This document shows positions 13,985 through 15,556 of a stretch of 40,194 nt of DNA, piece by piece. Location of the stretch: positions 1-40,194 of the forward strand of contig JAKIWH010000007.1 in assembly GCA_022750125.1 (NCBI GenBank), read 5' to 3'. The notes below the pieces were generated by a model. The model worked only from the letters and a program-made list of their open reading frames with translations. It was not told the origin of the DNA and made no database searches. Origin of the DNA: Thermoplasmata archaeon (GTDB lineage: Archaea > Thermoplasmatota > Thermoplasmata > Lutacidiplasmatales > UBA184). A program made the position numbers and the translations under genes. The stretch's first letter is position 1. Each line of letters starts with the position of its first letter.

Positions 13985-15289
13985 GTGAAGCTCGACCGGC
14001 CCGTGCTGCAGGTCGCGCTCGACTTCGAGAACTTGAGCCGCGCGATGACGGCCGCCGCGGAGGCGGTCGAGGGCGGCGCGGACTGGATCGAGGCCGGCAC
14101 GCCGCTCATCAAGAGCGAGGGGCTCGACGCGGTGCGCGAGCTCAAGAAAGCGTTCCCCGGCCGGCGGGTCGTCGCCGACATGAAGGTGATGGACACGGGG
14201 GCGTTCGAGGTGGAGCTCGCGGCGAAGGCGGGCGCAGACCTCGTGACCGTCCTCGGGGCCGCGGACGATGAGACGATCGCGGACGCCGTTCGCGGCGGCG
14301 AAAAGTACGGCGCGGAAGTGGTCGTGGACCTGCTCGGGGTCGCGGACCCTGCGGAGCGGGCGAAGACCGTCGCGCGGCTCGGGGCGGGCGCCGTCTGCCT
14401 TCACATCGGGATCGACATGCAGATGACCGGTCGCACCCCGTTCGCTACTCTCGAGGGGGTGGCCCGGGCCTCGCCGGTTCCGGTGGCAGTTGCTGGGGGC
14501 CTCACGAGCGAGACCGTGGCCGAAGCGACACGAGCGGGCGCGCGGATCCTCATCGTCGGCGGGGCGATCACGAAATCACCGAACATCCGGGAGGCGACGG
14601 TACGGATTCGCAAGGCGATCGATACCCGCGAAGCGCTCCCGAGCGAGCATTTCCATCGCGTGGGGGAGGGGGAGGTCCGCTCCGCGTTCGAGCGGGTTTC
14701 CACGCCGAACCTCTCGGACGCCATGCAGCGCCACGGCGCGCTCCACGGTCTCCACGCCCACTTGCCGAGACCGGACTCGAAGCTCGTGGGACCCGCGGTG
14801 ACGGTCGTCACGCGGGACGGCGACTGGGCGAAACCGGTGGAGGCGATCGACCGCGCCGGCCCCGGGGATGTCCTCGTCATCGACGCCGGGGGCCAGACGA
14901 CCGCCATCTGGGGAGAGCTCGCGAGCTGGTCGGCCCACGGCAAGGGAGTGAGCGGCGTCGTGATCGAGGGCGCCGTCCGCGACCTCGACGCGATCCTCGC
15001 CCTCGGCTTTCCCGTCTTCAGCCGGCACGTTTCTCCGAACGCTGGCGAACCGAAGGGTCACGGCGAGATCGGCGTCGAGGTGATCGTCGGGGGCGAGCGG
15101 GTCCGACCCGGCGATTGGATCGTGGGGGACGCGAGCGGCCTTGTCGTCGTTCCGCGGGAGCGGGCCCAAGAGGTCGCGAACCGAGCTCTCGACGTGCTGG
15201 AGCACGAGAACCGCGTACGCGAGGAGATCCAGCGCGGTTCTACTCTCGGCAAGGTCCAGAAACTCGAACGGTGGGAGAGGGTGGGCTAG
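13985..15289 (+). CDS. Bifunctional 3-hexulose-6-phosphate synthase / RraA-like protein
   Basis: A 434-residue fusion. Residues 1 to about 210 form an OMPDC-superfamily barrel with the DxKxxD metal/substrate motif (ADMKVMDTG, D65-K67-D70) and a phosphate-binding end (AVAGGLTSETV, ILIVGGAITKSP), as in hexulose-6-phosphate synthase. In archaea this enzyme interconverts ribulose-5-phosphate plus formaldehyde with hexulose-6-phosphate, making pentoses. Residues ~225-434 are a RraA-like domain with AIWGELASWSAHGKGVSG and VIEGAVRDLDAI, the latter holding the R-D metal pair. This fusion is known in other archaea. RraA-like domains are often oxaloacetate/HMG-type aldolases, so an RNase-regulator role should not be assumed. 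Confidence 0.9.
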   Translation: MKLDRPVLQVALDFENLSRAMTAAAEAVEGGADWIEAGTPLIKSEGLDAVRELKKAFPGRRVVADMKVMDTGAFEVELAAKAGADLVTVLGAADDETIADAVRGGEKYGAEVVVDLLGVADPAERAKTVARLGAGAVCLHIGIDMQMTGRTPFATLEGVARASPVPVAVAGGLTSETVAEATRAGARILIVGGAITKSPNIREATVRIRKAIDTREALPSEHFHRVGEGEVRSAFERVSTPNLSDAMQRHGALHGLHAHLPRPDSKLVGPAVTVVTRDGDWAKPVEAIDRAGPGDVLVIDAGGQTTAIWGELASWSAHGKGVSGVVIEGAVRDLDAILALGFPVFSRHVSPNAGEPKGHGEIGVEVIVGGERVRPGDWIVGDASGLVVVPRERAQEVANRALDVLEHENRVREEIQRGSTLGKVQKLERWERVG

Positions 15290-15345
15290 CCCACCCCGAC
15301 CCGTTCCGAAATGCTAAAGGGGCCGGCCTTCCGACGAGGAACGGT

Positions 15346-15420
15346 GCTCCCGTAGTCTAGTCCGGCCAAGGATTCGGCGCCTTCGACGCCGTAACCCGGG
15401 TTCAAATCCCGGCGGGAGCA
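15346..15420 (+). tRNA. tRNA-Glu (anticodon TTC)
   Basis: A 75-nt cloverleaf. The acceptor is GCTCCCG/CGGGAGC with discriminator A at 15420 and no encoded CCA. The D-arm is GTCT/GGAT, the anticodon stem CGGCG/CGCCG with loop CCTTCGA (anticodon TTC at 15382-15384), and the T-arm CCGGG/CCCGG with loop TTCAAAT. There is no intron. Position 33, almost always U, reads C (15381). Confidence 0.93.
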
Positions 15421-15556
15421 GTGCCCTCACGCTACGCTCCGTACACCAGGGGGTACGGCTCGAACGCGGGACGCCGTCGAGGACCCAGTGAAGACGTCTC
15501 CGTCGACACGTGCTGAGCCGAACCCTCTCCGCTCCTCGGCGAAATCCTGACTTACG

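Follow-up and report, generated by a model that had tools for sequence, protein, structure and literature searches.

The tRNA-Glu(UUC) gene of the window

The window, the whole stretch of 40,194 nucleotides analysed here, is one contig of an archaeal metagenome assembly that is 87% complete and comprises 1.89 Mb in 146 contigs; it carries the tRNA gene whose features are collected in Table 1. ARAGORN called it as tRNA-Glu(ttc) at 15345-15421, and positions 15346-15420 matched Rfam RF00005 with 54.1 bits against a gathering cut-off of 29. Direct reading gave CGGCG at 15375-15379, C32 at 15380 and C33 at 15381, and, on the 3' side of the loop, G37, A38 and CGCCG at 15387-15391, so that the bases and coordinates of an earlier sequence-only reading (a CCTTCGA loop between CGGCG and CGCCG, with C for U33) proved exact. 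The loop runs C32, C33, U34, U35, C36, G37, A38 and presents the UUC anticodon in seven bases on a stem of five pairs. The turn of the anticodon loop at U33, on which the ribosome relies, is a reason why this base is called universal. In the open reading frame just upstream of the tRNA (13985-15289), an orotidine-5'-phosphate decarboxylase/HUMPS domain is fused with an RraA-like domain.

Table 1. Coordinates of the tRNA-Glu(UUC) gene and its parts in the window
Feature	Position	Strand	Evidence
tRNA-Glu(UUC) gene, full-length, intronless, no encoded CCA	15346..15420	+	ARAGORN, RF00005, sequence, fold
Acceptor stem 5' half GCTCCCG, paired with CGGGAGC at 15413-15419	15346..15352	+	sequence, fold
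Anticodon arm CGGCG-CCTTCGA-CGCCG; closing pair G31-C39	15375..15391	+	sequence; G31 in 82/84 C33 genes
C33, replacing the nearly universal U33	15381..15381	+	sequence; C33 in 74/103 family genomes
Anticodon UUC (TTC in DNA)	15382..15384	+	ARAGORN
Discriminator A	15420	+	sequence

Measured against what is expected of an elongator tRNA, the gene has the cloverleaf and the family score, and has C at 15381 in place of U33. RNAfold recovered the acceptor arm, the T arm and an anticodon arm with a loop of seven bases, and drew the D arm shifted (-34.5 kcal/mol, z = -3.04). The C33 gene of a relative (L091), folded alone and without modifications, took a different fold with the loop paired to the D arm, and the energy model alone is therefore no proof of the window fold. 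An alternative fold with U at 33 had been left open by the sequence-only reading; judged by eye, a one-base shift of the loop breaks the stem.

RF00005 found 27 places in the genome, of which the window gene is the only tRNA-Glu and the only one with C33, the other 26 having U33 (23 by ARAGORN; L025, L027, L028 and L029 by eye). No second reader of GAA was found among these 27 places of the 87% complete assembly. The supposition that this might be the sole tRNA-Glu(UUC) was borne out to that extent by both RF00005 and ARAGORN, and with it the consequence that decoding must tolerate C33 unless the base is edited. The gene of the sister genome G001 is identical and those of four other congeners are 91-95% identical, all with C33. 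Each of these five (G001-G005) has, among the matches listed, a single UUC gene with C33 and a single CUC gene with U33, C33 being their only UUC form. A plasmid search with the window gene gave no match.

Distribution and conservation of C33

The gene belongs to a family of acid-soil archaea, Lutacidiplasmatales-type Thermoplasmata (f1), assigned by gene matches and organism names rather than by a tree. A tRNA-Glu pattern allowing any base at 33 (UUC or CUC) matched in 374 of 400 genomes of the class, and a longer pattern with C33 fixed in 77: 70 of 95 f1 genomes, the single f3 genome, 6 of 8 genomes of the Sysuiplasma type (f11) and none of the other 296, which include both f2 genomes of the same order. 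A shorter pattern, applied to 103 genomes of the family, gave C33 in 74 (the 70 above plus G400, G404, G405 and G407, found by the short pattern only), U33 in one (G014) and no recognised gene in 28 (27 had no match at all; the match in G008 is not embedded in a tRNA). Among the 36 good genomes (>=90% complete, <=5% contaminated) the corresponding numbers were 27, 1 and 8. On inspection, short-pattern matches in G008 (L215) and G022 (L220) and one in G254 (L236) proved not to be tRNAs; G018, G316 and G369 each gave a single extra short-pattern match, and all of these genomes except G008 also have a longer-pattern C33 match.

Across 84,980 species, a scan for tRNA-Glu(UUC) with C33 yielded 84 stretches; its pattern fixes parts of the D arm, so that further such genes may exist. 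Of the 80 that carry titles, all name Thermoplasmata or Thermoplasmatota apart from three, labelled Micrarchaeota, Euryarchaeota and 'bacterium'; the genes of the latter two are of f1 type. By type the 84 divide into f1 (77, a label given by exclusion, four of them without a title), f11 (five), f3 (one) and Micrarchaeota (one). The Micrarchaeota gene (L156, KMA_Bin04) has the D-arm words GTCTAG and AAGGAT of the 77 f1 genes and the closing pair C31-G39; transfer, a mislabelled bin or convergence are possible sources. Candidatus Lutacidiplasma silvani AcS3-62 (L091), whose genome is discussed as type material in the excerpted account of the Lutacidiplasmatales (PMC9287336), likewise has C33.

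G369, G021, G013, G304 and G404 each have two C33 matches in one assembly, which may be genuine duplicates or a sign of mixed bins. Of the two copies in each of G021 and G369, one has the stem that elsewhere accompanies an intron and the other lacks it. G092 (L095) holds a second, degenerate C33 copy of 72 bases with an imperfect stem, about 4.5 kb from the intact one (L124).

In all 25 distinct intronless f1 genes of 75 bases (two genes of 76 bases were excluded from the loop comparison), loop positions 32-38 (CCUUCGA) are invariant. Their stems, by contrast, come in eight paired versions, almost all of them Watson-Crick, with compensated changes. An invariant loop on a stem with compensated changes makes the gene look selected. 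C33 is accompanied by G31 in 82 of the 84 genes, the exceptions being T31 (L127) and the C31 of the Micrarchaeota gene; the displayed U33 UUC genes have C31.

C33 in tRNA-Glu(UUC) is an inherited, clade-wide exception. A sequencing error at 15381, which the sequence-only reading had named as a possible refutation, and chance are excluded because C33 is conserved across the congeners and the family (84 stretches in the species scan, 74 of 103 family genomes), and comparison with relatives, which that reading had called for, places the rarity in the clade and not in the window genome alone. In annotated eukaryotic tRNA genes, departures from conserved positions are mostly pseudogenes according to the excerpted PMC9023262, and one C33 copy, that of G092, is degenerate. 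An artefact, a pseudogene or a non-decoding tRNA is nevertheless extremely improbable, given the dozens of separate assemblies, the compensated stems, the use of GAA and the position of this gene as the only UUC gene found; from the sequences, conservation refutes both error and pseudogene.

Probable GAA decoding with C33

For the codon counts, open reading frames were chosen with a simple longest-ORF rule. In the window, 24% of the Glu codons are GAA. In the 77 C33 loci this codon accounts for 16.6 of every 1000 codons and for 29% of those for Glu (AAA 15%, CAA 25%), and in the U33 relative G014 at 30% (AAA 18%, CAA 20%); avoidance of GAA in C33 genomes is not borne out by these shares. In the tRNA loci of the window's own genome GAA reaches 31%, above AAA (25%) and below CAA (34%), the latter a point against a fully working C33 tRNA. 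The sequence-only reading had offered a specialised or non-decoding tRNA as the other option; that part of it was not supported, with no other UUC tRNA found and with the GAA shares given above for the window (24%) and the C33 loci (29%), whereas its view of the gene as the only UUC gene, and of what this entails for decoding, stood.

We consider it probable that the window gene encodes an ordinary elongator tRNA-Glu(UUC), the only one in its genome to read GAA, with a fixed, clade-specific C33; the clade-wide C33 is real, and the tRNA that carries it is very probably an essential elongator. The mature tRNA would retain C33, and on the ribosome it would read GAA as well as, through wobble, GAG. 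The use of GAA, with no second reader among the tRNAs found, points indirectly to charging with Glu and decoding of this codon. An adequate turn at C33 would replace the U-turn, perhaps helped by the G31-C39 closing pair. A methylated G37, which is expected in archaea and is unable to pair with C33, may also help.

Some cost would be expected of such a tRNA. U33C in the yeast tRNA-Gln(CUG) gave a pseudohyphal phenotype that its authors ascribe, in the excerpt of PMC3664417, to poor decoding or charging, and U33C abolishes modification by Elongator, which reads U33 (excerpted PMC11096365); it is from these two effects that the cost is expected.

Also counting against a working C33 tRNA are the 28 of 103 family genomes, 8 of the 36 good ones among them, that have no recognised tRNA-Glu(UUC) (for example G099, G131, G170, G019, G188, G292, G260 and G008). 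GAA stands at 22.7 per 1000 codons in 16 loci taken nearly all from genomes of this kind. In 12 f1 genomes the missing gene was not found by the covariance model (initially the best 150 candidates per genome, among the matches listed), by a half-gene pattern, or by the opening 15 bases of the gene, one mismatch being allowed, where 30 of 38 matches were known CUC genes or were read; G008 was covered by the model and half-gene searches only. For G099 and G131 all RF00005 matches above the cut-off were typed, by ARAGORN or by reading, and no tRNA-Glu(UUC) was among them. The gene may have been lost or disguised in these family members.

Replacement of U33 across a clade in an elongator tRNA is known from the tRNA-Ser(CAG) of the Candida CUG clade, where the base is G33 and is tied to codon reassignment, whereas the Lutacidiplasmatales-type tRNA-Glu(UUC) has C33. 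Initiator tRNA bypasses A-site decoding. The eukaryotic (metazoan) initiator tRNA-Met is also functional with C33, as described in the excerpted PMC9023262, but the tRNA described here is an elongator. A close likeness is the tRNA-Cys(GCA) of Sulfolobales, a natural elongator with C33 across an archaeal clade that, in the excerpt of PMC7668247, its authors could not isolate; it differs in its amino acid, in its G27-U43 pair, where the tRNA-Glu gene has G31-C39, and in belonging to a distant archaeal clade. With that C33 elongator already known, a C33 tRNA-Glu is new as a variant only. In the literature searched, part of it as excerpts and with subscription journals thinly covered, we found no report of C33 in Thermoplasmata tRNA-Glu.

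Editing, Elp3 and the intron at 37/38

A mature tRNA of ordinary form would result if a tRNA cytidine deaminase turned C33 of the transcript into U33. A genomic C in 74 of 103 genomes where function expects U is a pattern such editing would leave, and excerpted accounts supply precedents: CDAT8 edits C8 to U8 in Methanopyrus kandleri (PMC3695527), and a Vibrio editor converts C to U in the anticodon loop at base 32 (PMC9553926). As here, the M. kandleri tRNA genes are archaeal and carry C at an almost invariant U, but there 30 of 34 genes are concerned, at position 8, and here one tRNA at position 33 (PMC3695527). A PF00383 deaminase was not found in any of 17 f1 genomes (16 with C33) or in the one f3 genome tested, the C33 genome G026, and matched in all 30 other Thermoplasmata tested (4/4 f11 C33 genomes and 26/26 others, two f2 genomes of the same order included). 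A deaminase of this kind tracking C33 was rejected as a candidate, since its absence from the f1 genomes tested and presence in f11 argue against such an editor common to all C33 lineages. A TadA-like probe against the PDB showed no chain named CDAT8 among the best 60 of 66 matches listed, so that a PF00383 search may miss CDAT8-like enzymes, and new kinds of deaminase may likewise escape it. The missing correlation, together with the burden of keeping a whole enzyme for one base of a single tRNA, leaves editing unlikely, and less likely than a genuine C33.

tRNA-Glu(UUC) is a standard Elongator substrate. In the excerpted PMC11096365, U33C abolishes acetyl-CoA hydrolysis by human ELP123 and the formation of mcm5U34 in yeast. 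C33 could accordingly be kept as an anti-determinant that blocks Elp3 at U34 of this tRNA while other U34 tRNAs are modified, a proposal that is compatible with a working C33 elongator tRNA and that we regard as rather improbable. Matches to ELP3 (TIGR01211) stronger than 1e-100 were present in 82 of 95 f1 genomes and in 63 of the 70 C33 f1 genomes, which suits a shield and led us to reject loss of Elp3 as the explanation of C33. The Elp3 of G014 can be aligned along its length, including the cysteine motif, with 6ia8, an archaeal Elp3. On the other side, the need for U33 is known for the eukaryotic enzymes only, and the seven f1 Elp3 proteins aligned, none of which belongs to a C33 f1 genome (the sources are the U33 genome G014 and genomes in which no UUC gene was recognised), differ from those of other Thermoplasmata at many otherwise conserved columns (the six from outside G014 were aligned with relatives only). 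Seven of the 70 C33 f1 genomes lack a strong Elp3, including the window's own (best match 5.4e-58) and G001 (1.8e-21); in these a shield would be no reason for C33, unless the gene is merely absent from the assembly. A single-gene sketch of an Elp3 tree, without a C33 f1 member, placed f11 beside f1 and was given no weight. We hold it as no better than tentative that the family gave up U33 in its GAA-reading tRNA either as such a shield of U34 or owing to an unknown deaminase that converts C33 to U33 in the anticodon loop of this one tRNA.

An intron of 20-28 bases lies at 37/38 in 24 of the 77 f1-type loci, the other 53 being intronless. All 24 fit a bulge-helix-bulge with a 4-pair core and 3-base bulges, a form imposed by the search expression, in which C32, C33, U34 and U35 pair with NAGG of the intron and G stands opposite C33 in every case. 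In nine intron-bearing U33 UUC genes of other families the base opposite U33, read by eye, is A (seven) or G (two). The match of base 33 and intron base in both forms points to an adaptation of C33 to splicing ahead of the intron loss in some lineages, without proving that order. Among 11 displayed U33 tRNA-Glu(UUC) genes the intron is present at the same place in nine, absent in one and unresolved in one, and the 37/38 intron of this tRNA may be old. A tRNA-Glu(CUC) with an intron inside the T loop was seen in eight family loci (L175-L181 and L186; for example L176, position 1501, minus strand).

From this a history may be proposed in which the gene acquired C33 at a time when it still contained the intron and base 33 lay within the core, where C33-G would be a stronger pair than U33-A or U33-G, and many lineages later shed the intron and retained C33. 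C33 as a relic of splicing, with the core under selection and the mature tRNA mildly costly, is possible though doubtful, and is compatible with a working C33 tRNA. It draws on the intron-bearing loci with G facing C33 and on the frequency of the intron in U33 genes. The 53 intronless loci that keep C33 on several stems are unexpected under it unless C33 is neutral; the U33 genes L036, L041 and L043 (as also L078) have no intron; and the C33 genes of the five f11-type loci, of f3 and of Micrarchaeota are intronless, which speaks against an intron origin.

If archaeal Elp3 needs U33 as human and yeast Elongator do, U34 of the C33 tRNA would be left unmodified. Dozens of species in this clade have C33 in the only GAA reader found, beside a U33 sister for GAG. 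They amount to a natural experiment on U33, and decoding speed, misreading of GAC and GAU, and U34 modification could be compared within the same cell. For annotators, C33 alone is no mark of a pseudogene.
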